In this document: piece after piece, positions 44,454 to 60,758 of the stretch
How positions within the stretch are numbered: the stretch's first letter is position 1
Layout of the letters: every line of letters starts with the position of its first letter
Assembly: GCF_001984155.1 (NCBI RefSeq)
Contig: NZ_MTQO01000033.1
Coordinates: forward strand, 62,001-126,000
DNA from: Actinosynnema sp. ALI-1.44
Lineage (GTDB): Bacteria; Actinomycetota; Actinomycetes; Mycobacteriales; Pseudonocardiaceae
Length of the DNA: 64,000 bases
Direction: 5' to 3'
Notes under the pieces: model-generated
The model's input: only the letters and a program-made list of their open reading frames with translations
Databases searched by the model: none
What the model was told of the DNA's origin: nothing
Program-made: the position numbers and the translations under genes

Positions 44454-44603
44454 ATGACACGAGCTGCGGAATTCACCGAGCGGACCCCCGCATCCACCAC
44501 CCTTGATGACCCGTACCTGTTCGAGCGGGTCGAGTTCGTCACGGAGGAGGAGCCGGCTCCGGCGAGCCTCGTCTACCCGATGCCGTGTGGTGGATGTGGA
44601 TGA
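44454..44603 (+). CDS. RiPP precursor peptide, C-terminal PMPCGGCG
   Basis: 49 aa from ATG 44454. The leader is acidic and aromatic (TTLDDPYLFERVEFVTEEEP), followed by APASLV and a core ending YPMPCGGCG. Its TGA (44601-44603) overlaps the ATG of the MNIO gene (44600), so the peptide and enzyme are translationally coupled. Small acidic leaders with Cys-containing C-termini next to an MNIO/DUF692 enzyme and partner are the hallmark of MNIO-modified RiPPs. The two Cys in CGGC are the likely modified or metal-binding residues. The ribosome site is weak; a longer in-frame start exists upstream but looks unlikely. Confidence 0.75.
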   Translation: MTRAAEFTERTPASTTLDDPYLFERVEFVTEEEPAPASLVYPMPCGGCG

Positions 44604-45436
44604 TTCGTGCTGGACAGCCCTGGCTCGGTGTCGGGCTGGGCTACCGCCAGGATCTCCACGACGCGATTTTCGCGCGGTCCGGCTCGATCGACTGCCTGGA
44701 AGTCATCTCTGAGCAGTATCTCGCCGCAGCGCCGGCGCAACGAGAGCGACTTCGTGTTCTTCGCGAGCGGTTCCCGGTGGTGCCACACGGAATCGAGCTG
44801 TCGATCGGGACGGCGGGACCGCTCGACCTTCAGTACCTTGACGATCTCGCGCGGTTGGTCGTGGCCATGGACGCGCCTTGGTGCAGTGACCACCTGTCCT
44901 TCACCCGGGCAGGCGACCTGGCGATCGGTCAGCTCACCCCGTTGGTCCGAACTCGCGAGCACGCCACAGCTGTGGCCGTCAAGGCAGCTCAGGTTCAACG
45001 ACATGTCGGTGTGCCGTTCCTGCTCGAGAACATCACCTACTACCTGGACTTCCCGGCCGAGCTCTCCGAGGCGGAGTTCATCACCGAAGTCGTCGAGCAG
45101 GCCGACTGCGGTCTGTTGCTCGATCTGACGAACGTCTTCGTCAACTCGGTCAACCACCACTTCGACCCGGTCGAGTTTGTTGCCGCGATTCCGCTCGAAC
45201 GCGTTGTTCAGCTCCACCTGGCTGGCGGGCAGTGGTCCGGGGACACGCTGGTGGACACCCACTCCGCTCCCGTACCCGAACAGGTGTGGCAGTTGCTGGA
45301 CCACGTGGCCGACCGGCTGTCCTCGTTGCGGTGCGTGATCCTTGAACGGGACCAGGAATTCCCGGACGAGTTCGACGAGCTGCTGGCCGACCTGACGCGC
45401 GCGCGTCAAACGTTCGACCTGGTGCGCGGCGGATGA
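44600..45436 (+). CDS. MNIO family (DUF692) multinuclear iron oxidase
   Basis: 278 aa from ATG 44600 (ATGA overlap with the precursor). It is a TIM barrel with the metal-binding positions of the family all visible: CLEVISEQY, VPHGIELSIG, APWCSDHLSF, PFLLENITYYL, GLLLDLTNVFVNSVNHH, VVQLHLAGGQ, VDTHSAPVPEQVW and CVILERDQEFP. Family members (MbnB, TglH, ChrH and others) use two or three iron ions and O2 to oxidise Cys or Asp in a precursor peptide. The adjacent partner gene and the Cys-ended precursor fit that chemistry. The predicted substrate is one or both Cys of the PCGGCG tail. Confidence 0.9.
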   Translation: MIRAGQPWLGVGLGYRQDLHDAIFARSGSIDCLEVISEQYLAAAPAQRERLRVLRERFPVVPHGIELSIGTAGPLDLQYLDDLARLVVAMDAPWCSDHLSFTRAGDLAIGQLTPLVRTREHATAVAVKAAQVQRHVGVPFLLENITYYLDFPAELSEAEFITEVVEQADCGLLLDLTNVFVNSVNHHFDPVEFVAAIPLERVVQLHLAGGQWSGDTLVDTHSAPVPEQVWQLLDHVADRLSSLRCVILERDQEFPDEFDELLADLTRARQTFDLVRGG

Positions 45437-46176
45437 CAGACGACGGCTTCCAGCGAGCACTCGCCGAACTGCTGACTGTCCCCGGGACGCGACGCATGCT
45501 GGATGACGCCGCGGACGGGTTCGCCGCACGATTCGCACTGACAGCAGACGAACTTGGTCTGCTGCTCGGCACCAACAGGTCGCGACTGGACCTGACCGCG
45601 CGGTCGATCGTCGGCAAACGCCTCGACTTCGTCCGCAGGGCGCTGCCCGCCACGATGAGCGCCCTGCCGGCCAGGTCGCACCAGGGGTTGTTCGCCGACT
45701 TCATCGGCCGCTGCCCGCCTGTCGAGCCTGCCGAGCACGGGGCACGACCGATCGGCGAAGCGCGGCGGTTCGCGGACTACTTGCGTGACTGCGGTCCGGC
45801 CGGTGTCCCGCTGGCCGCAGACCTGGCTGAGTACGAGGTACTCCGTGCGGAGGCTCAGTTCGGTCAGCCCACGAGCTCGGACAGACTTCTTGGCGGCCAC
45901 GTTCGACTGGGCCACTTCACCTTTGACGTGATCACTCTGTATGACGGCTGGCGTCGCGCCGGCCGGGTGCAGGCCGAACCAACGCCACGCCCGACGTGGC
46001 TCGCGGTGGTACGTGCCAGCGAGAGTTCCGCGCTGGCTTGCTTCCGATTGGGCGAGCGGGCGTACGCGGTCCTGGATCGGCTGGGTCGCGGGGAGTTTGC
46101 GCCGGACAGTGAGGTCGAGCGTGCGGTGCTACGGCTGGCGCAACAGGAAGGTTGGCTGACGGATGCGGGGTGTTAG
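45433..46176 (+). CDS. MNIO partner protein (precursor-recognition candidate)
   Basis: 247 aa, ATGA overlap with the MNIO gene; its TAG abuts the ATG of the next gene. It is helical in the N-terminal half (FQRALAELLTVPGTRRMLDD, ALTADELGLLLGTNRSRLDL) and mixed in the C-terminal half (PTWLAVVRASESSALACFRL, ending in a winged-helix-like LRLAQQEGWLTD). Position and size match the MbnC/TglI-type partners that bind the leader peptide and present it to the MNIO enzyme, although sequence similarity in this class is low. The C-terminal segment looks like a PqqD/RRE-type winged helix. Confidence 0.65.
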   Translation: MTDDGFQRALAELLTVPGTRRMLDDAADGFAARFALTADELGLLLGTNRSRLDLTARSIVGKRLDFVRRALPATMSALPARSHQGLFADFIGRCPPVEPAEHGARPIGEARRFADYLRDCGPAGVPLAADLAEYEVLRAEAQFGQPTSSDRLLGGHVRLGHFTFDVITLYDGWRRAGRVQAEPTPRPTWLAVVRASESSALACFRLGERAYAVLDRLGRGEFAPDSEVERAVLRLAQQEGWLTDAGC

Positions 46177-48090
46177 ATGCGTGTCTGTGCGGTGGTGAAG
46201 TACCCACCGATCCAAGGTGGGGTCAGTGCGAACGCCTACTGGATGGCCCGGTCGTTGGCCGAGTCGGGGCATCGGGTGGATGTGGTCACCAACGCCGGTG
46301 AGGTCGAGGACGCTTACCGGATCTTCTTGGGCGAACAGGACCTGGCGCGATTGGAGGCGTCCTTCCCGAACGGTGGACAGGTGCGGGTGATCACCTCCGG
46401 CAGGTTCGAAGGGTCTCGTGCGGCGGTGCCCGCCAGCGACTCGTACGTCACGAAACTGGCCGGGTTGGCGATGGAGACGGTCCGTGCCCACGACGCCGAT
46501 GTCCTGTTCTCCAACTACTTCGAGCCCTACGGGATCAGTGCCCACCTGGCCTCGACCTGGACGGGCGTACCGCACGTCACGAAGCACGCGGGCAGTGACC
46601 GTGTTCGTCTGATGGACCACCCGGAACTCGGGTTGGTGTACCGCGAGGTGGTGCGCGCGGCGCGCTTGGTCATCGGTGACCCGGACCTGGCCGGGCTGGG
46701 CGTCGACACTGAACGCATCGCCGAGTTCCCACCCGTGTACCTGCCTGCCGAGTTCACCCCCAACGGTCCGGTGGCCGATCTCGACGCGATGACCGCCGCG
46801 TGGTCGGGCTCGCCGTTCGTTCGAGCCCCGGCGTCGTTCGATCCTGGCAACGCCACCATCGGCATCTACGGCAAACTCGGCGCCGCAAAGGGAACCTATG
46901 ACCTGGTGGCCGCGTTGGCCCGGCTACGGCGCCGTGGCGTGCGCTTCAACTTCCTCGCTGTGGCCGGCGGCGGGGAGCGAGGCTCGTTCCTGCGGGCGGT
47001 GGATCAGGCAGGCCTGACCGATGTGACGTGGACGTTGCCGTTCGTGCCGCACTGGAGAGTGCCCGAGATCCTGCGGGCCTGCACAGCTGTGTGCGTGCTG
47101 GAACGGGATTTCCCGGTGGAGATCCATCGACCGTCACTGCCCTACGAGGTCCTTGCCTGTGGGACGTGTGCCGTGGTGTCGGCTGCTGTGGCACGTACCC
47201 AACCTGCTCTTCCGTGGGCATCCGTCGCCCGTGTGGTTGACGATCCTCGTGACATCGACGCCTTGGCCGCAGTGCTCGACGACGTCATCAGCGATCCGGC
47301 CAGGGCCGCTGCGTTGGGGAGTCGCGGCGCCGACGTGCTGCCACGTCCTGATCCCGCTGAGTTCAGCGCTACCTACGAGGCCTTGTTCGATACGGCACGC
47401 ACGGCCCCCACACGAACCGAATCGGGCCTCAGCGTCGACAGATTGCGCGATCTGGTGCGGCGCCACATGCCGGTGACCGTGCAGCAGCTACCCGCGCAGG
47501 TGGAACTGGCGATCACCGAGAGCGCCCGCGGTCAACGACTGGCCGGGAAGGCGGCAATCGCGGTCGCTTCGGCTGTGCTCGATCGCGTCGACGCGTGGGA
47601 AACGGTCACGTTGCGCGAGGTCGTTCGGTTCGAGCAACACCGACTGTGGCTCGCTGTCGATGCCGAACCGGAAGGTCGGCCAGTGTTTCCCCATCAGCAC
47701 CACGCGGTCGATGGCGAGGCCGCAACCGCGTCGTCACGGCCTGTCCGGAGCAACTGGCTGAGATTCGAAGAGTTCGCAGTCGATGTGGTGCGCGCCCAGC
47801 ACGCGATCACCAACACCCTGCCGTTGCCGCCGCAACCAGACCAGCCCGTGCTGCTGATGTTCCACAAACGCCGGAGTCTCAAAGGCCGGGCCTATCGGAT
47901 CAACCGGCACACGCACGAACTCATCGACCTGTGCGACGGGATTCGCACAGTTGCCGAGATCTGCGATGTCGTTGGCCGACGGAACAACCTTCCGGTCGCC
48001 AAGGTCCGGGACCAACTGCACACGCTGGCCGCCACCGGTGTCATCAGCCCGCTCACCACCAACGGTCGCCGACGAGGGGAGCCAGAGTGA
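46177..48090 (+). CDS. Glycosyltransferase (GT4-like) fused to a PqqD/RRE domain
   Basis: 637 aa, ATG directly after the previous stop. Residues 1-410 are a GT-B glycosyltransferase: VKYPPIQGGVSANAYWMARS, GVPHVTKHAGSDRVRLMDHP, TIGIYGKLGAAKGTYDLVAA, and an E-rich donor-site region (LERDFPVEIHRPSLPYEVLA with CGT). A middle region of unknown fold follows. Residues about 560-630 are a PqqD-like domain (YRINRHTHELIDLCDGIRTV, AEICDVVGRRNN). PqqD/RRE domains bind RiPP leader peptides. A glycosyltransferase carrying its own RRE would be a peptide-directed glycosyltransferase, presumably acting on the PCGGCG precursor. Confidence 0.8.
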   Translation: MRVCAVVKYPPIQGGVSANAYWMARSLAESGHRVDVVTNAGEVEDAYRIFLGEQDLARLEASFPNGGQVRVITSGRFEGSRAAVPASDSYVTKLAGLAMETVRAHDADVLFSNYFEPYGISAHLASTWTGVPHVTKHAGSDRVRLMDHPELGLVYREVVRAARLVIGDPDLAGLGVDTERIAEFPPVYLPAEFTPNGPVADLDAMTAAWSGSPFVRAPASFDPGNATIGIYGKLGAAKGTYDLVAALARLRRRGVRFNFLAVAGGGERGSFLRAVDQAGLTDVTWTLPFVPHWRVPEILRACTAVCVLERDFPVEIHRPSLPYEVLACGTCAVVSAAVARTQPALPWASVARVVDDPRDIDALAAVLDDVISDPARAAALGSRGADVLPRPDPAEFSATYEALFDTARTAPTRTESGLSVDRLRDLVRRHMPVTVQQLPAQVELAITESARGQRLAGKAAIAVASAVLDRVDAWETVTLREVVRFEQHRLWLAVDAEPEGRPVFPHQHHAVDGEAATASSRPVRSNWLRFEEFAVDVVRAQHAITNTLPLPPQPDQPVLLMFHKRRSLKGRAYRINRHTHELIDLCDGIRTVAEICDVVGRRNNLPVAKVRDQLHTLAATGVISPLTTNGRRRGEPE

Positions 48091-49115
48091 TCAGCGGCCC
48101 CACAGGCATCGTGTGGGACGTCACGTACGCGTGCCCGCTTCGATGCACCCACTGCTATTCGGAGTCCGGACGGCGCCCGGCCCGGCAACTGACGCCCGGC
48201 GAGATGATCGAAGTCGCCGACGCGCTCATCTCCCTCGGGCCGAAAGCGGTGGCGATCACGGGCGGCGAACCCCTGCTGATCCGAACGCTGCCCGATGTCG
48301 TCCGCAGGTTCCGGGCCGCGGGCATGGGCGTAACCGTCTACACTGGAGGGTGGTTGCTCGATCGGACTGCCGCCGTCGATCTGCTCACCACGTGTACGCG
48401 CGTCAACGTCAGCATCGACGGTGCGACAGCCGAAGTCAATGATCGTATCCGCGGCCGCGCGGGCGCTTTCGACCGGGCGATGGACGCACTCGCCACACTG
48501 GACACCACCTATCGTGAGTTACGCGGCCTGGACATGGCGTTGGCCAGGTTAGGCATCGAGGTCACCGTCGTGCGCAGCAACTTCCTCCAACTCGGGGAGA
48601 TCTGCGGGACGCTCGCGCGCGGGATTCCCAACCTGCGGTCTGTTGCCATGAGTGCGGCCATACCGACCGGACTTGCCAGCCGCACCGGTTTCGTCGAGCA
48701 CGAACTGCTGACGAACGAGCATTTCGAGGAACTGGTCAGTCCGGAGTTCGCCGACCGTCTCCGTGCCTGCGCGCCACCGGGAGTACGGGTGGCCGTCACG
48801 GACAACCGCTTCCTGCGCAACGATCCCGCGTCCCTGGCTGCCGGGACAGTCCCGATGATGCAGGTGGAGCCGGACGGTGCGGTGCGCGCCATGGCCATCT
48901 ACGAAGGAACCATTGGCAATCTGCTCACCGACGACCCCGCGGAACTCTGGAATCGATGCGTCGAACGGTGGAGCGATCCGTTCGTGGTGCGCACGCTGTC
49001 GGCGGCAGGCACCATGGAATCGTGGGCCGCGGCCGCCCGCCGGATCGACTACCGCTTCGGCACGGACGAGGACCGTGCCCGTATCGACCGCAGGCCTGCC
49101 TATCTGCCCCACTGA
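48087..49115 (+). CDS. Radical SAM enzyme of the RiPP cluster
   Basis: 342 aa from GTG 48087 (GTGA overlap, GAGGGGAGCC upstream). The radical SAM motif CxxxCxxC is in VWDVTYACPLRCTHCYSESG, with SAM-binding AVAITGGEPLLIRTL. The C-terminal region (250-342) has no Cys-rich SPASM cluster, although it does have the usual MMQVEPDGAVRAMAIYEGTI strand where a SPASM domain would begin. It is the last gene of locus A. It could install a carbon-centred modification (crosslink, epimerisation or methylthiolation-like step) on the same peptide. Confidence 0.85.
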   Translation: MISGPTGIVWDVTYACPLRCTHCYSESGRRPARQLTPGEMIEVADALISLGPKAVAITGGEPLLIRTLPDVVRRFRAAGMGVTVYTGGWLLDRTAAVDLLTTCTRVNVSIDGATAEVNDRIRGRAGAFDRAMDALATLDTTYRELRGLDMALARLGIEVTVVRSNFLQLGEICGTLARGIPNLRSVAMSAAIPTGLASRTGFVEHELLTNEHFEELVSPEFADRLRACAPPGVRVAVTDNRFLRNDPASLAAGTVPMMQVEPDGAVRAMAIYEGTIGNLLTDDPAELWNRCVERWSDPFVVRTLSAAGTMESWAAAARRIDYRFGTDEDRARIDRRPAYLPH

Positions 49116-51109: not shown

Positions 51110-52339
51110 ATGTCCCGGACACACCTTTCCTTCCACCGGCTCACCGTTGTGGACGAGGGCGACGAGGTCGTGATCGGACGGCCGGACACCGACTCGTACG
51201 CGGTCTTTCCCCAGTCAGCCGGCGAACTGCTCGTCAAACTCTGTGACGGCATGAGCATCTCCGAGGCGGCCGACTGGTACGAGGCCCGTGAGGGAGAACC
51301 GGTCGACATGGACGACTTCGTCGACACCCTCACGGAACTCGGCTTCCTGCGGGACAGCCCGGACAACACCGAGCAACCGGCCCCGGCTGCCACACCGGTA
51401 CGTCTCGTCTGGCTCGGCAGGGCACTCTTCGCCCCAGCGGCAATGGCGTGCTACGTCGCTCTCGCAGTGTGCTGTGCCTGGGTCCTCATCACGGTTCCGC
51501 AGGTCCGTCCACAACCCTTGAACCTGTTCTTCACCGACTCACTGCTGGTGATCGAGGTGATCCTGCTGATCGGCGGGACTGTCGGAATGGGCATTCACGA
51601 AGGGTTCCATGTACTTGCCGGTCGGCGGCTCGGCATGCCGAGCAGGCTCAGCATCGGGGCCCGCCTGTACTTCGTCGTCTTCGAGACGACCCTGCAGGGT
51701 CTGCTCGGCGTTCCTCGCAGGAAGCGTTATCTGCCCTTCCTCGCAGGCATGCTGGCCGACGGCGTGTTGTTCTGCGCTCTCACCCTGATCGCCGCGCTCC
51801 TGCACGATCCCTCGCAGGTGCTGCCCTGGTCCGGACGACTGGCGCTCGCGCTCGCGTTTCTGACGATGCTGCGGTTCGCCTGGCAGTTCTACTTCTTCCT
51901 CAGAACCGACCTCTACTATGTCGTCACCACCGCACTGGGTTGTCAGGATCTGCACGGGGCTACCCGCGCGTACCTGCACAACCGGCTGCGCCGTTTCGTG
52001 TTCCGTCGATGGTCCGAAGTGGACGAGACAGCGTGGACGGAGCGCGACAGACGATTCGTCCCCGTGTACGGACCACTGATGATCGGCGGGGTGGTGGTGC
52101 TGCTCGGCATGGCGGCCGTTGCGATGCTGCCTGCCGCGCTGAAGGCGCTCGACATGCTCGCCGAAGGCCTGTTCGGCAGCGGTGCGGTAGCACGGGTCTT
52201 GGACGCGGTCGCCTTCCTGATCCTGGGGTTCGCCCCGGTCACGGTCGCGCTCGGCATCCACGTCCGGGCGTGGCTGCGCCGTCTCAACCGAAGGCGGTCG
52301 AACTCCGCACAGGGCCTGGCACAGAAGGGAAATCCATGA
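51110..52339 (+). CDS. PqqD-M50 membrane metalloprotease
   Basis: 409 aa. Residues 1-85 are a PqqD/RRE-like domain (VVIGRPDTDSYAVFPQSAGE, LLVKLCDGMSISEAADWYEA, ELGFLRD). Residues 100-409 are a polytopic membrane domain with the site-2-type zinc motif HEGFH in VGMGIHEGFHVLAGRRLGMP and further helices (LAGMLADGVLFCALTLIAAL, MIGGVVVLLGMAAVAMLPAA). Members of this class (YydH-like) process and export RiPPs. The fused RRE suggests direct recognition of the small basic peptide encoded upstream. The stop overlaps the ATG of the TPR gene. Confidence 0.85.
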   Translation: MSRTHLSFHRLTVVDEGDEVVIGRPDTDSYAVFPQSAGELLVKLCDGMSISEAADWYEAREGEPVDMDDFVDTLTELGFLRDSPDNTEQPAPAATPVRLVWLGRALFAPAAMACYVALAVCCAWVLITVPQVRPQPLNLFFTDSLLVIEVILLIGGTVGMGIHEGFHVLAGRRLGMPSRLSIGARLYFVVFETTLQGLLGVPRRKRYLPFLAGMLADGVLFCALTLIAALLHDPSQVLPWSGRLALALAFLTMLRFAWQFYFFLRTDLYYVVTTALGCQDLHGATRAYLHNRLRRFVFRRWSEVDETAWTERDRRFVPVYGPLMIGGVVVLLGMAAVAMLPAALKALDMLAEGLFGSGAVARVLDAVAFLILGFAPVTVALGIHVRAWLRRLNRRRSNSAQGLAQKGNP

Positions 52340-54435
52340 ACACCTCGACCAAACACGTTTGGGTCACCGGCGAGTGTGCGGCGGTTCGCCTGCAGGCGAT
52401 GGCGGCCTTGCCACCGGCAGACGTCTCGGTGAGCTGCCACCGGCTGCTGCGGGGTCCGTACACCGGCGTGAGTTCGGTACTCGCCGACCTGGTGCCGCGC
52501 ATCCAGCGGCAGTGGCCGGACCTGGTGTGGGCGCACAGGTTCGCGATCCTGACTGTGGCGCCTCAGCTTGAGGACGTGATCGGCCCGGTAGAGAAGAACC
52601 TGACCATGTCGTCGACCGGGGAGGAGCGCACGCGCTACCAGGGCGGTCTTGGCAGGCGCGCCTCGCACGGAGTCACCGAACTGCTTGTCTCCTATGCCGT
52701 CCGGCGGGACCAGGGACCGCTCGTCCTGAACTTCGATGCCGTCGACGCGGCCGACTTCACCGACCAGGAGTTTTTGGCGATCCTGCTTCGCCGGGCCGCT
52801 CCTGATCAGGTCCACGTGCGGATTGGCGCGGCGCCGAGCACGCTGCCAGACGAGCTGGTTTCCGCGCTACAGGCGCACACCGACCCCAAGCACGTGCCCG
52901 GTGCGGAACCGCCGCCGGTACGCGGCGACGACGAATTGCTGCATGCCTTCATCGAATCAGGCGGCACCAGCGACGATCCCGCCGAGCGCGACGCCTGGTT
53001 GCGCGCGGACGCCGGACGCCGCGCGGCACTGCACGACGCGCAGGCTGACAGGCTCATACGGACAGGGGACTTCGGTCATCGGCTTGGCGCTGTTCCATAC
53101 CACCTCGAACACGGCAGCGACCCCGGCGGAGCCGGTGTCGCCGCGTTCGAGGTCGCGGTGAACCACTGCATCGGAAACGGGCTCTACGAGGCGGCCCGTG
53201 AGCTGGCCACCCGGGCGTGTGCGATCACCGACCCGGTGCGCCAGCACCGGGAGTACTGCCTGTTCGTGGCGAAAATGGCGTTGAGTATCAGTCCCACGGA
53301 GCCGGATCAGGCGGAGAAGATGCTCAACGACCTCCGCAGGCGTTATCCGTATCCGAAAGTGCACATGTCGACCAGCTACTCGATTGCCATGCTGTACACC
53401 AAGTTCTATCCGCCCGCGCGCAGGGACCACGCTGTGGCCAAGGCGTTCGCGCAGAACGGGATCGCCATCGCGTCGAGCACGCCGAACCCACAGGATCGGG
53501 CGTTCTACACGGCTTTCCACCGTAACGGCTTGGCCCTCATCGAGCTCAACACGGGTAACCTCACCGAAGCGCTTCGACTGGTCACCTCCGGGATCGAGCT
53601 GTTGGAACAGGAGTTGCCCGCGGACAAACACCAGCTGCATCACTCGGTGCTGTTCCACAACAGGGCACGCCTGCACCAGGCACTCGGTATGTTCGACGAA
53701 GCAAAGCGCGACTTCGACCGCGCGATCGAGCTCGACCCGAACTTCTCCGAATACCTGTACGACCGCGGCAGCCTCGCCCGGTTGCGCGGCGACGCCGACG
53801 CGGCCATCGCGGACTACGAGAAGGCGATGAGCCTGAGTGCTCCGTATCCGGAGGCGTATTACAGCCGCGGCGACACCCGGGCGAGCAACGGCGACACCAC
53901 GGGCGCGCTCGCCGACTTCGACTACGTGCTCGAGCTCGAGCCGGATCACGTCGACGCGCTGATCAACCGGGCCGCGCTGCTGCTCGAATCCGGCGACGTG
54001 GACCGGGCGGCGGCAGATGTCCAGCGCGGTCTCGGGCTCGCACCCGACAGCGCACATCTGCTGTGTGCCCAAGGTCTGATCGCACTGGAGACCGGTGATC
54101 ACCCAGCTGCCAGGACCTCCTTCCAGGCCGCGCTCGCCGTAGATCCGGCCATGCACGCCGCCTTGGTCAACCACGCCGTACTCGACTACGAGGAGGGCGA
54201 CTTCGACGCCGCGGTCGAGAAGCTCACCGGCGCGCTGGACCACGTAAACGATGACCCCGACCTGTGGTTCAACCGTGGTGTCGCGCACCAGGCCGCTGAG
54301 CGGTACGCGGCGGCGATTGACGACTACACCGCCGCGCTGGCCCTGCCGGGCGCCGACCGCGCGGAGTTGCAGCGGCAAAGCGACCTTTGCCGGACGGCCA
54401 TGGGCACGCCGCTCACCCCGGCAGGCACCCAATGA
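52336..54435 (+). CDS. TPR protein
   Basis: 699 aa from ATG 52336 (ATGA overlap). Residues 1-230 are a mixed alpha/beta domain I do not recognise (LLVSYAVRRDQGPLVLNFDA, DFTDQEFLAILLRRA). From about 280 on it is a tetratricopeptide superhelix. The clearest repeats are LFHNRARLHQALGMFDEAKR, DFDRAIELDPNFSEYLYDRG, AYYSRGDTRASNGDTTGALA and ADFDYVLELEPDHVDALINR. It is probably a scaffold or regulator for the protease or NRPS complex, inferred from its place in the operon. Confidence 0.75.
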   Translation: MNTSTKHVWVTGECAAVRLQAMAALPPADVSVSCHRLLRGPYTGVSSVLADLVPRIQRQWPDLVWAHRFAILTVAPQLEDVIGPVEKNLTMSSTGEERTRYQGGLGRRASHGVTELLVSYAVRRDQGPLVLNFDAVDAADFTDQEFLAILLRRAAPDQVHVRIGAAPSTLPDELVSALQAHTDPKHVPGAEPPPVRGDDELLHAFIESGGTSDDPAERDAWLRADAGRRAALHDAQADRLIRTGDFGHRLGAVPYHLEHGSDPGGAGVAAFEVAVNHCIGNGLYEAARELATRACAITDPVRQHREYCLFVAKMALSISPTEPDQAEKMLNDLRRRYPYPKVHMSTSYSIAMLYTKFYPPARRDHAVAKAFAQNGIAIASSTPNPQDRAFYTAFHRNGLALIELNTGNLTEALRLVTSGIELLEQELPADKHQLHHSVLFHNRARLHQALGMFDEAKRDFDRAIELDPNFSEYLYDRGSLARLRGDADAAIADYEKAMSLSAPYPEAYYSRGDTRASNGDTTGALADFDYVLELEPDHVDALINRAALLLESGDVDRAAADVQRGLGLAPDSAHLLCAQGLIALETGDHPAARTSFQAALAVDPAMHAALVNHAVLDYEEGDFDAAVEKLTGALDHVNDDPDLWFNRGVAHQAAERYAAAIDDYTAALALPGADRAELQRQSDLCRTAMGTPLTPAGTQ

Positions 54436-54938
54436 CCGTCGACGCACGGCGATTCCGTGACGCCCTGGCCCGGGTGCCGACCTCGGTCGCGGTGGTGACC
54501 ACCGTGACCGGGGACCGGCACCCGTACGGGGTAACTATCGGTTCGCTGTGCTCGCTTTCCCTCGATCCCCAGCTCGTGATGTTCTCCCTGGACCGACGCA
54601 GCCGGTCACATGCCGTGTTCGCGGAAACCACCCGGTTCGTGGTGAACGTGTTGAGCGAGGGCCAGGCTCCGCTTGCCCGCCGGTTCGCCACCAGCGGGGT
54701 CGACCGGTTCGCCGATGGAGCTGCCATCACCCGCGGCGCATACGGGCTGCCGATCATCCCTGACGCGCTAGTGACAGTTCTGTGCACGCGCTACCGGGTG
54801 ATGCGCGCCGGCGACCACGGCATCGTCGTGGGTCTGGTGCACGAGGCCGAACTGCGGCAGGGGCATCCGCTGTTGTACTGCGACCGCAGCTACCGCGGTC
54901 TGACCGACCGTCGGCACAACGCGGTGCCGGCTCCGTAG
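54432..54938 (+). CDS. Flavin reductase domain protein
   Basis: 168 aa from ATG 54432 (ATGA overlap). The flavin_reduct fold is VPTSVAVVTTVTGDRHPYGV, TIGSLCSLSLDPQLVMFSLD, FVVNVLSEGQAPLARRFA, and the C-terminal GIVVGLVHEAELRQGHPLLY with CDRSYRGL. Such proteins supply reduced FMN/FAD to a two-component monooxygenase, or act directly as a flavin oxidoreductase. No monooxygenase gene follows in this operon, so it may oxidise or reduce the NRPS product itself or serve an enzyme elsewhere. Confidence 0.85.
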   Translation: MTVDARRFRDALARVPTSVAVVTTVTGDRHPYGVTIGSLCSLSLDPQLVMFSLDRRSRSHAVFAETTRFVVNVLSEGQAPLARRFATSGVDRFADGAAITRGAYGLPIIPDALVTVLCTRYRVMRAGDHGIVVGLVHEAELRQGHPLLYCDRSYRGLTDRRHNAVPAP

Positions 54939-54952
54939 GAGGTGCTACTGAC

Positions 54953-55189
54953 ATGGGAGTGGGTCGCCGCCAGGATGACAGCACGATCAGGCAGGTGATC
55001 GCCGACGTTCTCGGTGTGGAGTCGGTGTCGATGTCCGACAATCCGTTCGATCTCGGGCTGACCTCCATTCAGGCCATCCGGATCTGCGCGCGGATCCGGC
55101 ATGACCTCAGCCTCGATCCGGCGCCCGAATGCCTGCTGGGCAGTGCGACGGTCGCCGGTTTCGTCGCGACCGTGCGGGGACGTGGATGA
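54953..55189 (+). CDS. Stand-alone carrier protein (PCP/ACP)
   Basis: 78 aa from ATG 54953, with TAGGAGGTG upstream. The phosphopantetheine site is NPFDLGLTSIQAIRICARIR (Ser about residue 38), with helix ATVAGFVATV at the C-terminus. It is expected to be loaded by the adenylation protein whose ATG overlaps its stop (ATGA) and to donate the first residue to the condensation domain of the NRPS. Confidence 0.85.
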   Translation: MGVGRRQDDSTIRQVIADVLGVESVSMSDNPFDLGLTSIQAIRICARIRHDLSLDPAPECLLGSATVAGFVATVRGRG

Positions 55190-56616
55190 ACGGCACCGGA
55201 ACTGTTCACGGCGCAGTGGCGCGGCAGGCACGACTGCGGCCACAAGCGACGGCGGTCGTGTGCGGTGCCGATCGCGTTAGCTACGCCGAACTGGACCGGC
55301 GCGCCGACGCCTACGCGGCGGAGCTCATCAGTTCCGGCGTGCGGCCCGGCGGCATGGTGCCGGTTCTGCTGCCCAGGTCGGTGGACCTGGTCGTGGCACT
55401 GCTCGCCGTCCTCAAATGCGGGGCGGCCTATGCGGTGCCGGACCTCCGCTGGCCGCACGTACGGGTCCAGGACGTGATCGACCAGCTGGACCCGCCGCTG
55501 GTGATCACACGCCCACCGATGTGGGATCCCGGCCGGGTTGACCACATCAGGCCGGCACCCGACGACGAGGACGCGGCGGCGACGGTCTTCTTCACCTCCG
55601 GCACGACCGGTCGCGCGAAAGGTGTCATCTCCCCGCACCGCGCCACCATGCGGCTGTTCGCGCAACCGTCTGTGCGGTTGCCGATCGGCCGGACGATGCC
55701 GCAGGTCGCGCCCGGCTGTTGGGACGCCTTCAGCCTGGAGTTGTGGGGAATGCTGGCCACGGGCGGCACATCGGTCATCGTCGAGACCGATTTTCTGCTG
55801 CCACAGCACCTGCGCGCGCTGACCGTTGACACCATCTTTCTCACCTCGGCGTTGTTCGAGGTGGCCGTGGACGAGGACATCGACTGTTTCGCCGGCATCG
55901 CAACGGTCCTGACCGGCGGAGAGCGGATGTCGCAGGACCACGCGCGGCGATTCCTCCGGCGGTTCCCGACCTCGACTCTGATCAACTGCTACGGCCCGGT
56001 GGAGACGTGCGTGTTCGTGACCGCGCACCGTGTTCGTCCCGAGGACTGCGCCGCCGCCGGGGGCGTACCGGTCGGCCTCCCGATGCCGCATACGGAGGTG
56101 CATGTTCTCACCCGGACCGGCATGGCCGCCGTCGGTGCGATCGGCGAAATCGGTGTGTCCGGGCACGGCTTGGCGCTGGGGTACCTGAACGCACCCGCTC
56201 TGACACGAGAACGGTTCGTCACCGTGGAGGTGGACGGACTGCCACGCCGGGTGTACCGAACCGGTGACCTCGGCCAGGTGACCGACCAGGGGGTGCTGCA
56301 TTTCAGGGGGCGGCTGGACCGGCAGGTCAAGATCGCGGGCCACCGGGTCGAACCGGCGGAGCTGGAGGCGGTGTCGATGAGCGTGCCCGGCGTACGCACC
56401 TCTCGGGTGATGCCGGTGCTGGCGGAAGGCGGCGGTCGGAATGGGCTGGCACTGTACTACACGGCGGATCCCGGTGCACCGGCTCCGGCGGCGCTGCGCA
56501 GGTATCTGGCGTCGCGGCTGCCGTCCTACCTCGTGCCGCACACCGTCCGCCGGATCGACGCCTTCCCTTTCAGCGCGACAGGCAAGATCGACACCGAAGC
56601 ACTGCTGGAGCTCTGA
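55186..56616 (+). CDS. Stand-alone NRPS adenylation protein
   Basis: 476 aa, ATGA overlap with the carrier gene. Core motifs are all present: A3 VFFTSGTTGRAKGVI, A4 CWDAFSLELWG (with the amino-group-binding Asp), A5 INCYGPVETCVFV, A7 YRTGDLGQV, A8 GRLDRQVKIAGHRVEPAELE and A10 PFSATGKID with the catalytic Lys. The Asp in A4 supports an alpha-amino acid substrate; I cannot name the side chain by eye. It should charge the neighbouring carrier protein and provide the first residue of the product. Confidence 0.9.
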   Translation: MNGTGTVHGAVARQARLRPQATAVVCGADRVSYAELDRRADAYAAELISSGVRPGGMVPVLLPRSVDLVVALLAVLKCGAAYAVPDLRWPHVRVQDVIDQLDPPLVITRPPMWDPGRVDHIRPAPDDEDAAATVFFTSGTTGRAKGVISPHRATMRLFAQPSVRLPIGRTMPQVAPGCWDAFSLELWGMLATGGTSVIVETDFLLPQHLRALTVDTIFLTSALFEVAVDEDIDCFAGIATVLTGGERMSQDHARRFLRRFPTSTLINCYGPVETCVFVTAHRVRPEDCAAAGGVPVGLPMPHTEVHVLTRTGMAAVGAIGEIGVSGHGLALGYLNAPALTRERFVTVEVDGLPRRVYRTGDLGQVTDQGVLHFRGRLDRQVKIAGHRVEPAELEAVSMSVPGVRTSRVMPVLAEGGGRNGLALYYTADPGAPAPAALRRYLASRLPSYLVPHTVRRIDAFPFSATGKIDTEALLEL

Positions 56617-59600
56617 TGCACTACCCCATGTCGGCCGAACAGGAGGGCATCTGGCTCAGCGACCAACTTCAGGAGAAAGCCTCACGTTTCGTCGTGCCCT
56701 GGGTGCACCGGTTGCGTGGCAGGGTCGACTCCGCTGCGCTGACGTATGCGCTGTCCGCCGTCGTCCGGCGGCACGAGCCGCTGCGCAGCAGACTCACGGT
56801 CCTGGCTGGGCGCCCGGTTCAGGTGGTGTGCGCCGCAGAGCCGGTCCGGCTACGGATCATGGACGTGGGCGAGGCGGACCTGGACGCGGTGTTGCATCAG
56901 GTTGTGCGACAACCGCTTCCGCTCGACCGGTCGCCTCTGCTGCATGCGACGTTGCTGCGCGTCGGTGCCGAGGAGGCCGTACTCTGTCTCGCCATCCACC
57001 ACGCGGTGCTCGACGGCTGGTCGCTCGGCTTACTCAACCACGAGATCAGCGAGTACTACGCGGAGGCGGTCGGCGCGGCTCCGGCACGGGTCCCGCACAT
57101 CGCCTTGCGGTACGGAGAGCACACGCGCCGCGCTGTCGTCACAAGCCGTGACCTCCAGTTCTGGCGCGCGACCCTGCACGGTGTTCCGGCGCAGACGACG
57201 GTGCCGCCGGACCGGCAACGGCCAGCCACACTGGGTGTGGCGGGTGGCTGGGTTCCCGTTGTGATGGACGGACGGATCGGCGCCGTTGTACGCCGGTTCG
57301 CGCGGCAGGCCAGAGTAACGCCGTTCGCGGTGCTGATGAGTGCTCTCTCGGTTCTGGTGGGGAGGTTGAGCGGGCAGCAGGACACAGTCATCGGGACTCC
57401 CGTGTCTCGCAGGGACACCACCGAACTGGAGCCGCTGATCGCGTGTCTCACCGATGTCATGCCGGTACGGGCCCGTCCGGCGCCGGAGACATCTTTCGCC
57501 GAGTTCGTCGCGTCCGTCGCGCAGGCTGTGCGGGACATGATCGCTCATCGGCACGTGTCCTATCGCGATCTGGTGCGCGAGTGCGTTGCCGACTGGTCAT
57601 TGAGCGGGTCACCGCTTTTCCAGATCGTGTTGACGCTCGACGACGCTCCGCCGTCCGGCCTCGTGCTCCCCGGGGTGACCGCTGAGCAGTTGCCGGTGCA
57701 CAACGGGACAGCCAAGTACGACCTGTTCCTTGACCTGGCAGCCGTCGCGGGCGGGTTCTCCGGTGGGCTGGAGTACTCGACCGAGCTGTTTGACCGCTCG
57801 ACCGCCGAGCGGTTCGTCTCGCGGTGGCAGACCGTGCTGGTCGCCGCGCTGGCCGAGCCGCGGCAGCCGATCGGCGATCTCGACATTCTCCTTGTAGGCG
57901 AACGTGTCCAGCTTGGCTGGTGGTCCACGACTCGACCGGCTGTGGTGCGACCGCTGGCGCACGAGGCGTTCCTCGATCAGGCACGTGCCGCGCCGGACCG
58001 CGTGGCCGTCATCGATGATCGCCGCAGCCTCTCGTACGGTGAACTGGCAGCACGGTCTGATGCGCTCGCCGCACGGTTGGGACCGGGACCGCCAGGGCGA
58101 CGCGTCGCGGTCCTGTTGCGACGTTCAGCAGAACTACCGCTCGCGATGCTCGCGATCATGAGGGCAGGTGCGTGTTGTGTGGTCATTGACCCTGACCTCC
58201 CGGCCGAGCGGATCGCGTTCATGCTGGGGGACAGCGGGGCGACAACCGTGATCACCCGCCAATCGAAGGCCATTGCGCACGGACCGTGGCGACTGGTACT
58301 GATCGACGACCCCACCGACGGGACGACCCATCCGCCCGAGATCAGCCCCGAGGACCTCGCTTACGTGGTCTACACCTCCGGTTCGACAGGGCTGCCCAAA
58401 GGGGTCGCCATGCCGCACAGGTCGTTGGCGAACCTCGTCGCGTGGCAGGTGCGTACCTCCGGCTGCGGTGCGGGCACGCGGACGATGCAGGCCGCCACCC
58501 CGGGCTTCGACGTTGTCTTTCAGGAAGTCTTCGCCACGTGGGCGGCTGGTGGCACGCTGGTCGTCGCGGAGGGGCGGCGGGACGCGGAACGACTGCTCGA
58601 CCTGGTCGAGCGCCATCGGGTGAACCGCGTCTTCCTCGGCTTCTTCGCGCTGCAACAGGTCGCCGAATACGCGGTTGCGACGAACCGTGCGGTGCCCAGC
58701 CTCCGCGAGGTGATCAGTTCGGGAGAACAGGTGCACGTCACCCCGGCGATTCGGGTGTTCTTCCAGCGTATCGGCGCCTCGCTGGAAAACCAGTACGGGC
58801 CTTCCGAGACACATGTGGTGACCGCCGAGCGGCTCGCCGGCCCACCGGCGTCCTGGCCGACGCGGCCACCGATCGGTCGACCCGTCGACGGCGCCGAAGT
58901 GCGAGTGCTGGACGATCGGCTCCGTCCGCAGCCTGCCGGGGTCATCGGTGAGATCTACGTCGCCGGCGTGCCGGTCGCTGACGGCTACATCGGCCATCCT
59001 GAGCTGACCAGGGAACGGTTCGAGCGCCATGCCGATGTGCCGCTGTACCGGACGGGGGACCTCGGCAGGCTGCTGCCTGACGGACGGATCGAGTTCGTCG
59101 GCCGGACCGACCACCAGGTCAAGGTCCGCGGCTTCCGGGTGGAACTCGGTGAGGTCGAATCGGTGCTCAAGGAGATCGCGGGCATTCGTGACGCCGTGGT
59201 CGTCGCGCACGACGGCGCACTCGTCGCGTACTACATCGGTGACCACGAACCCCAGCGGCTGCGGGAAGCCATGGCGCGCCGCCTTCCTGGCCACGCGGTG
59301 CCGTTCCAGTTCGTTGCGGTCGACCACTTCCCGCTGACCACGAGCGGAAAGCCCGACAGGGCCGCACTCCGCCCTGTCCCGGCCAGGCGGTCCCACACTA
59401 CGGTCCTTTCACCGCGGCAACAACGGATCGCCGACATCTGGGCGGAGCTTCTTGGTGTCGATGATGTTGGCGCCGATGACGACTTCTTCGCTCTCGGCGG
59501 GAACTCGCTGTCGGCAACGCGTGTCGCATTGCGACTGCGTGCCGAGCTAGCGGCGCCCATTCCGGTCGCCGCGATCTTCACCCACTCGACGGTCGCCCGC

Positions 59601-60758
59601 CTGACAACGCTGATCTCCGGAGGCCAGGACACAGCACACGTGGCGGTGCGCGAACTGGCCGACGACATCGGGCCGGTGCCGTCGAACGCTGTCATCGAAC
59701 CGCGCGAAGTCCTGCTGACCGGTTCCACCGGCTTCCTTGGCGGATATCTGCTCCGCGAGCTCCTCACCCGTACCGAGGCGAGGGTGCACTGTCTGGTTCG
59801 CGGGGCGGGCCCGCACGTCAACATGATCCGGCTTGGCCTGTGGGAATCCAGCTGGGAAAACAGGGTCGTCGTGCACCGCGGCGACCTCGCGCGGCCGTTG
59901 CTCGGCCTGTCCACGGCCACGTTCGACGAGCTCGCGAGCACCGTCGACGTCATCTACCACGCCGGAGCCGTCGTCAACCTCACGTGGCCGTTCGAGCGCC
60001 TCATGAAGTCCAATGTGGATGGTACGGAAGAGGTACTGAGGCTGGCCGCGCACCGCAGGACTGTGCCCGTGCACCACGTGTCAACCGCGGGCGTGCACGT
60101 CGGTCCCGGCCGAGTGTGCGCGTCGGATCCGCTGCCGCCCATGGAGAAGCTGGACAATGGGTACGCGCTGAGCAAGTGGCAAGCCGAGCAGTTGCTCGCA
60201 CAAGCCCGCGCGCGTGGCCTTCCGGTGTCGGTCTACCGGCCGACGAGGATCGCGCCGGACTCGACCTCGGGTGCCTGCGGTCACAAGGACTTCCTGTGGC
60301 TGGTGCTCAAGGCGTGCGTGCAGGCCGCCGCCGCACCGGCAGGCGTCGGCCTCGCGTTCGACCTTGTCGCCGTGGACTATGTCAGCGCCGCGATCGTCGG
60401 GCTGTCACGCCGGGAACCTGGGACATACCACCTCGCGAGCGAACGGCTCGTCCGGTTGACGGCTCTGGTGGACGAGCTTCGGGCCATCGGGTACCAGATT
60501 ACGGACGTCGCATCGGCCGACTGGCTGCAGATGGTCGCCGCCGACCCGGCCAACGCGGCCTTCCCGCTGCTGGGTCTGCTGAGCACCGAGCTCACGTCGG
60601 CGGGCTCGGAAGGCACTGTGCTGGTGAGCGCCCACGAGACCCGCATGGCGCTTCGGGGGACAGGGATCGAGCCGCTCCCATTCGGCCGGGCAGGACTTCG
60701 GGCCGCCGTGTCCTACCTTCAGCGAACCGAATTCCTTCCTCCCGTCACAAGTACCTGA
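56616..60758 (+). CDS. NRPS module C-A-T-reductase
   Basis: 1380 aa; the ATG shares a base with the preceding stop (TGATG). The condensation domain (1-430) has the active-site CLAIHHAVLDGWSLGLL. The adenylation domain (about 440-925) has YVVYTSGSTGLPKGV, TPGFDVVFQEVFATW, ENQYGPSETHVV, YRTGDLGRL, GRTDHQVKVRGFRVELGEVE and TTSGKPDRA. The T domain is DDFFALGGNSLSATRVALRL (Ser about residue 965). The terminal thioester reductase (1020-1380) has the NAD(P) site LLTGSTGFLGGYLLRELLTR, catalytic Tyr/Lys in NGYALSKWQAEQLL and STAGVHV. Reductive release gives a dipeptide aldehyde, which could cyclise to an imine/pyrazinone or be reduced to an alcohol. Confidence 0.92.
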   Translation: MHYPMSAEQEGIWLSDQLQEKASRFVVPWVHRLRGRVDSAALTYALSAVVRRHEPLRSRLTVLAGRPVQVVCAAEPVRLRIMDVGEADLDAVLHQVVRQPLPLDRSPLLHATLLRVGAEEAVLCLAIHHAVLDGWSLGLLNHEISEYYAEAVGAAPARVPHIALRYGEHTRRAVVTSRDLQFWRATLHGVPAQTTVPPDRQRPATLGVAGGWVPVVMDGRIGAVVRRFARQARVTPFAVLMSALSVLVGRLSGQQDTVIGTPVSRRDTTELEPLIACLTDVMPVRARPAPETSFAEFVASVAQAVRDMIAHRHVSYRDLVRECVADWSLSGSPLFQIVLTLDDAPPSGLVLPGVTAEQLPVHNGTAKYDLFLDLAAVAGGFSGGLEYSTELFDRSTAERFVSRWQTVLVAALAEPRQPIGDLDILLVGERVQLGWWSTTRPAVVRPLAHEAFLDQARAAPDRVAVIDDRRSLSYGELAARSDALAARLGPGPPGRRVAVLLRRSAELPLAMLAIMRAGACCVVIDPDLPAERIAFMLGDSGATTVITRQSKAIAHGPWRLVLIDDPTDGTTHPPEISPEDLAYVVYTSGSTGLPKGVAMPHRSLANLVAWQVRTSGCGAGTRTMQAATPGFDVVFQEVFATWAAGGTLVVAEGRRDAERLLDLVERHRVNRVFLGFFALQQVAEYAVATNRAVPSLREVISSGEQVHVTPAIRVFFQRIGASLENQYGPSETHVVTAERLAGPPASWPTRPPIGRPVDGAEVRVLDDRLRPQPAGVIGEIYVAGVPVADGYIGHPELTRERFERHADVPLYRTGDLGRLLPDGRIEFVGRTDHQVKVRGFRVELGEVESVLKEIAGIRDAVVVAHDGALVAYYIGDHEPQRLREAMARRLPGHAVPFQFVAVDHFPLTTSGKPDRAALRPVPARRSHTTVLSPRQQRIADIWAELLGVDDVGADDDFFALGGNSLSATRVALRLRAELAAPIPVAAIFTHSTVARLTTLISGGQDTAHVAVRELADDIGPVPSNAVIEPREVLLTGSTGFLGGYLLRELLTRTEARVHCLVRGAGPHVNMIRLGLWESSWENRVVVHRGDLARPLLGLSTATFDELASTVDVIYHAGAVVNLTWPFERLMKSNVDGTEEVLRLAAHRRTVPVHHVSTAGVHVGPGRVCASDPLPPMEKLDNGYALSKWQAEQLLAQARARGLPVSVYRPTRIAPDSTSGACGHKDFLWLVLKACVQAAAAPAGVGLAFDLVAVDYVSAAIVGLSRREPGTYHLASERLVRLTALVDELRAIGYQITDVASADWLQMVAADPANAAFPLLGLLSTELTSAGSEGTVLVSAHETRMALRGTGIEPLPFGRAGLRAAVSYLQRTEFLPPVTST

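Follow-up and report, generated by a model that had tools for sequence, protein, structure and literature searches.

A probable biosynthetic operon for a ribosomally synthesized and post-translationally modified peptide (RiPP), of a type that combines an oxidative enzyme of the MNIO family with a glycosyltransferase (GT), is described here from Actinosynnema sp. ALI-1.44, within a 64,000-nt stretch of contig NZ_MTQO01000033.1 that is hereafter called the window. At 44454-49115 on the + strand lie, as originally predicted, five intact open reading frames (ORFs) whose neighbours overlap or abut: those of a precursor peptide, the MNIO, its partner protein, the GT and a radical SAM enzyme. The MNIO ATG at 44600 overlaps the TGA stop of the peptide gene (ATGA), the start of the partner gene (45433) overlaps the MNIO stop, the GT gene (46177) abuts the end of the partner gene (46176), and the radical SAM gene begins with a GTG at 48087 that overlaps the GT stop. 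This arrangement has the anatomy of a RiPP locus, namely a gene-encoded precursor with a leader, a module resembling a RiPP recognition element (RRE), and adjacent predicted modifying enzymes. Sequence and predicted structure back the assignment through the gene set, a conserved precursor, an intact MNIO metal site, homology between the GT tail and the partner, and the linkage of the GT to MNIOs.

The MNIO matches PF05114 with an E value of 7.2e-83 (278 bits, gathering score 25), and all nine iron ligands of TglH, taken as the reference for the tri-iron site from the available text of PMC10880893, are identical in it (H63, H98, E143, D175, N178, H206, D219, H221 and E249). In Pfam and NCBIfam scans of eight window proteins, with matches considered up to E 0.1, its best NCBIfam model was that of the bufferin maturase (NF050167; 236 bits, under the curated cut-off of 310), while the ApyH model reached 119 bits (cut-off 400) and the MbnB model 41.8 bits (cut-off 325), a score below that demanded of a methanobactin enzyme; no MbnC model was among the matches of the scanned proteins. 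The host genome (11.7 Mb, 54 contigs) has exactly one other MNIO, in different surroundings (L038, 6757-7551), where it adjoins two proteins that, by eye, are possibly of the TIGR04222 type mentioned in the available text of PMC12452194.

The precursor belongs to a set of peptides that share a leader motif, P[YF]L[FL]ExV, ahead of Cys-rich cores that vary (e.g. PCCSCGGCCMCYA). Peptides of Nocardia (N. colli, N. altamirensis and locus L139) read ...[MIK]DPYLFERV[EQA]L...MGVLPCCSCG[GA]CC[MR]CYA and lie immediately upstream of the MNIO, the Sorangium precursor reads NPFLFERV...WCACAGRCNCFCGNCAACSISPN, and two from Asanoa have a PFLLE[TI]V leader and multi-Cys tails. Over 1.68 Mb searched in six frames (the window plus the fetched loci, which include overlapping copies), the leader motif followed by a Cys pair was confined to peptides beside these MNIOs, apart from a single stray match in L048, which looks like part of the MNIO there. 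Judged from sequence, this set of precursors is not due to chance. In other GT-MNIO loci, Cys-rich ends follow leaders of different sequence (FELEQLE, VEFRIQDLV, FELRAMKP and IVEWTI among them). A precursor rule, calling for a called gene of at most 130 aa with at least three Cys near its C-terminus, on the same strand as the MNIO and no more than 3.5 kb from it, was satisfied in 26 of 35 loci, whereas the parts of these loci beyond 7 kb (169.8 kb in all) held no such gene. The proposal of an MNIO RiPP-type operon with a real precursor is borne out by the leader, which is kept at the same place upstream of the MNIO in Nocardia, Sorangium and Asanoa; absence of a conserved precursor from homologous loci had been named as grounds for abandoning the proposal, and the precursor proved to be conserved. 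CGGCG, put forward earlier as the class motif, was dropped as a family marker because relatives carry other Cys patterns (PCCSCG[GA]CCxCYA and longer), and the window core, with two Cys and a C-terminal PCGGCG, is the smallest of those compared.

Relatives were gathered by searching genome contigs with an alignment of two GTs, from the window and from Nocardioides aequoreus, which yielded 79 loci. With the window counted, 37 loci hold a full-length GT (at least 570 aa), and 30 a short GT without the tail, the split GT of L062 being set aside. A same-strand MNIO at a distance of up to 5 kb is present in 32/37 full-length-GT loci versus 1/30 short-GT loci (Fisher p 1e-12). When L064 and L065, where the distance is 5.1 kb, and MNIOs on either strand of short-GT loci (L090, L091, L093, L094, L098 and L099) are counted, the figures become 34/37 and 6/30 (Fisher p 1.2e-9), both p values being taken over related loci in a sample drawn with GT patterns. 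In L046 and L071 the GT stands at a contig edge. GT-linked MNIOs also cluster in a tree of 68 rows (33 GT-linked) made by a quick method, four rows without the motif being skipped, with 5 label changes against a shuffled mean of 22.8 and none of 500 shuffles as low. Their hosts are Actinomycetota, Myxococcota, Acidobacteriota, Chloroflexota, Pseudomonadota and one metagenome-assembled genome (MAG) of Bacillota. The order peptide-MNIO-partner-GT is identical in the six closest loci (three Nocardia, Sorangium and two Asanoa), and the GT occurs in 5 of 150 Nocardia genomes, four of these being loci already found and the fifth L139. As far as sequence can tell, the genes of the peptide, MNIO, partner and GT, four in all, make up the conserved unit. 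A plasmid search with the GT returned one distant Agrobacterium GT, and the partner had no match among plasmids.

Several features of the gathered loci are recorded in their own right. In four candidate-phyla MAGs (L090, L091, L093 and L094) the MNIO lies just downstream of the short GT on the opposite strand. A Thermoanaerobaculia MAG has two GT copies around one MNIO (L057, 11104-18913), together with twelve small genes that qualify as precursor-like under the precursor rule; DxSGG-type leader ends and CxGCxGC cores are found in many of these. Asparagine-synthase-like genes accompany the MNIO and GT in L048, L053, L055, L056, L058, L060, L061, L063, L064, L065, L067 and L078, and one of those in L061 reads as a methyltransferase fusion. 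At L095 (3610-3759) and L123 (4979-5134), small peptides ending CLQCSGCHGCR and CNQCSSCHGCRG accompany short GT, radical SAM and asparagine-synthase-like genes, with no MNIO call; these loci may represent a radical SAM equivalent of the MNIO-GT system.

The GT matches PF00534 (Glycos_transf_1) with an E value of 4.3e-11, and its high-confidence predicted model has a GT-B fold and is GT4-like. Its tail, which had been described as a PqqD domain, is of a predicted peptide-binding kind, but the PqqD match is below cut-off (E 0.0037) and the homology extends to the whole MNIO partner, helical and winged-helix-like parts alike (hhalign 99.8%, E 1.5e-28); the ApyI model covers residues 474-622 (E 2.9e-4, 20 bits against a cut-off of 200). 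The earlier claim that this GT is tied to the MNIO agrees with the 34 of 37 loci above. The partner itself matches no Pfam family up to E 0.1, and so has no match to DUF2063 (PF09836); weak matches were found to HvfC and actinodefensin-associated protein B, and in predicted structure it comes closest to the pearlin-pathway TglHI chain.

The radical SAM enzyme matches PF04055 (E 1e-21), its only invariant Cys among four aligned sequences are C16, C20 and C23, and its tail appears SPASM-like by eye (EPDGxxRA...G), without auxiliary-cluster cysteines. No tblastn match to it at E 1e-3 was found in any of L046-L085, and the best match in L139 (E 0.076) is not significant. The enzyme was dropped as a core member, its relatives lying elsewhere, and the exact five-gene set no longer serves to define a class, as had been suggested, because the six closest loci lack a significant match. 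Relatives with 41-56% identity are found in 3/295 other class genomes and 6/396 other order genomes, and at E 1e-3 nothing in the fetched flanks of these nine (L130 spans just 9.4 kb) matched the MNIO, partner, GT or precursor. In L129 the relative adjoins a LanC-like/kinase protein, an S9 peptidase and two genes that are transporter-like by eye, along with three small Cys peptides, the scanned one of which matches the ALQxL class IV lanthipeptide model. By similarity to L129, L148 has the same gene set; L130 and L149 partly resemble L129 in appearance, and a small Cys peptide adjoins the relative in L153. With moderate confidence, the window enzyme can be regarded as a peptide-modifying enzyme recruited locally. 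The relatives in L129 (12760-13217) and L148 (8166-8294), inside lanthipeptide-type clusters with paired transporter-like genes, apparently represent a separate tailoring combination.

A route to the product may be outlined from these parts. The winged-helix domain of the partner would hold the leader (DPYLFERV) and present the C-terminal PCGGCG to the MNIO, which would oxidise one or both Cys; the GT would bind the same leader through a partner module of its own and transfer a sugar to the core, perhaps to a Cys thiol or to the sulphur of the oxidised group; and the radical SAM enzyme, apparently derived from another type of peptide cluster, might add a further, strain-specific change. Leader binding by the docking modules is suggested by homology to known MNIO partners, whereas Cys oxidation, glycosylation and its site, and radical SAM action on the peptide are what knowledge of these families would predict, and any function ascribed to the product, such as the metallophore-like one suggested earlier, would be inferential. 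The MNIO products tabulated in the available text of PMC12452194 have oxidised Cys, Asp, Asn or Phe residues. Sulphur is favoured as the sugar acceptor because Cys is the sole residue common to all of 30 cores compared and, in 9 of them, the stretch between the first and last Cys is free of Ser, Thr and Tyr; perhaps, then, the sugar is placed on sulphur, and residues outside that stretch are also compatible. It is conceivable, though rather less than probable, that the loci, which would then represent no fewer than six phyla, constitute a family of S-glycosylated MNIO peptides whose oxidised cysteines bear a sugar and whose leader is also the docking site of a GT equipped with a partner module; the window would add to this a radical SAM step from a lanthipeptide-type cluster.

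Known MNIO systems offer other explanations. In captophorins, bufferins and oxazolin, an MNIO and a partner of the PME1 type likewise stand beside Cys-containing peptides, the captophorins being described in the available text of PMC12668002 as an MNIO, PME1 and Cys-rich peptides, and the operon could be a thiooxazole metal-binding peptide system of this kind, with the GT providing a minor decoration or acting elsewhere. The Cys-rich cores adjoining the MNIO and the bufferin maturase as its best model would fit such a system; however, that score is under its cut-off, the partner is not of the DUF2063 (PME1) type, no signal peptide is seen on the precursor by eye, and the added GT contains a homologue of the partner module and accompanies the MNIO with high regularity, so that the explanation is unlikely. 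The pearlin TglHI system (3-thiaglutamate) shares with the window an MNIO with matching iron ligands and a partner with a helical N-domain and an RRE C-domain (PMC10880893, available text) and differs in that the window operon has a GT and the window core carries its own Cys. A scheme of the pearlin type, in which the peptide is a carrier for a small thiol-sugar molecule that is later cut off, could draw on the partner fold, on a core that is just PCGGCG at the extreme C-terminus, and on the GT domain, which is nearest to BshA and MshA, enzymes that make the sugar part of low-molecular-weight thiols. Against it, the likeness to BshA/MshA, at 16-19% identity, is that of the general GT4 fold, the Cys cores of the closest relatives span 10 to 25 residues, and no gene for tRNA-dependent addition of Cys or another amino acid was found among the eight scanned proteins, the genome not having been searched for one; the scheme is considered quite improbable. 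Loss of sugar transfer by the GT domain, with the tail acting as a scaffold, is very unlikely: the first acidic residue of the classical GT4 E-x7-E pattern seems by eye to be out of its usual place, yet 34 aligned GTs share twenty invariant columns, K233, K238 and E324 among them, and the GT-B model is of high confidence. Finally, a window cluster that is a decayed, now unproductive copy, most of its core cysteines gone, is hardly credible, since its five frames are intact with tight overlaps and all nine metal ligands are retained, despite a precursor with two Cys, where three from Nocardia have six each, and a partner absent from the 149 other relatives of the window genome, seven of the same genus included (150 genomes searched).

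The interpretation as an MNIO-GT RiPP operon must nevertheless accommodate findings that speak against it. The sample of the GT family is biased, having been collected by means of two peptide patterns taken from two GTs; in L059 no MNIO accompanies the full-length GT, although the flank is at least 8.5 kb, and in five short-GT loci GT and MNIO are on opposite strands. Nine of the 35 loci lack a precursor by the rule: the window itself and L067 have two Cys each, L053, L064 and L065 hold suitable uncalled ORFs, and L072, L073, L074 and L079 have no clear precursor, although a 41-aa ORF containing two Cys is situated close to the start of the MNIO in L073. Among the 26 that satisfy it, L052, L054 and L081 are doubtful, and the rule is not specific to MNIO because it also picked out three Cys-rich small genes (L095, L111 and L123) in loci where no MNIO was called, 503.5 kb in total. 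Compared with its nearest relatives, which have five to seven Cys, the window precursor has two, so that its core may be reduced, and the winged helix of the partner is shortened. Homology between GT tail and partner by itself falls short of proof that a single peptide is bound by both. For the radical SAM enzyme no docking domain was found, and the RiPP assignment of that enzyme is weakened because four of the nine relatives' loci (L131, L150, L151 and L152) have no RiPP neighbours by eye.

Among described systems, aminopyruvatide ApyHI resembles the window in that its models match the MNIO and the GT tail, and differs in that both scores are below cut-off and the window precursor ends in Gly rather than Asp. 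Glycocins, the S-glycosylated bacteriocins whose GT is of another fold class, would have the sugar on Cys as a common feature with the proposed product. The term 'MNIO' is absent from the available text of PMC12457901, the one glycocin paper compared. The PME-type 2 MNIO clusters of PMC12452194 have a partner of the structural type found here, and the partner named there from Plesiocystis pacifica may be the same protein as that of L060, the P. pacifica MNIO-GT locus, although the lengths differ (276 there, 308 as called here); 'glycosyl' is nowhere in its main text, figures and supplements being outside this statement. The available text of PMC12710340 reports fusions of RREs with glycosyltransferases that belong to a different Pfam family (PF00535), and no MNIO-GT peptide is described in that of PMC7794033, PMC12707348, PMC8776678 and PMC8719888. 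Neither an MNIO-GT peptide family nor a glycosylated MNIO product was found in the literature searched; this comprised main texts outside subscription, so that the novelty of the family is provisional.

Table 1. Genes of the operon, with coordinates in the window
Feature	Position	Strand	Remarks
Precursor peptide, 49 aa	44454..44603	+	Leader motif DPYLFERVEF; core ends YPMPCGGCG
MNIO (PF05114) oxidative enzyme, 278 aa	44600..45436	+	Pfam match; TglH iron ligands
MNIO partner protein, TglI/NGO1945-like, 247 aa	45433..46176	+	Helical domain and shortened winged-helix (RRE-like) domain
Glycosyltransferase (GT), 637 aa	46177..48090	+	GT-B (GT4-like), residues 1-411; C-terminal partner-homologous module to ~626
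Radical SAM enzyme, 342 aa	48087..49115	+	One CxxxCxxC cluster; accessory, outside the conserved core

The operon is preceded by a gene that is MarR-like by eye (157 aa) and followed by a SARP-type regulator gene. Farther downstream, a membrane protein (51110-52339) with no Pfam or NCBIfam match has, by eye, an HExxH-like motif and an N-terminal stretch resembling a peptide-recognition domain; it precedes a TPR protein and could be part of a separate peptide system. At 54432-60758, flavin-reductase-like, carrier-protein-like, AMP-ligase-like and long nonribosomal-peptide-synthetase-like genes stand in a row, these labels also being given by eye.

The recurrence of the four core genes together across several bacterial phyla suggests a natural product family that has been little described, for which a GT bearing the docking module of an MNIO partner would be a simple marker in the search for further clusters. 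The sharing of this module between GT and partner allows one to ask how a single leader may serve two unrelated enzymes, and it raises a defined question, whether or not the sugar is carried on sulphur.
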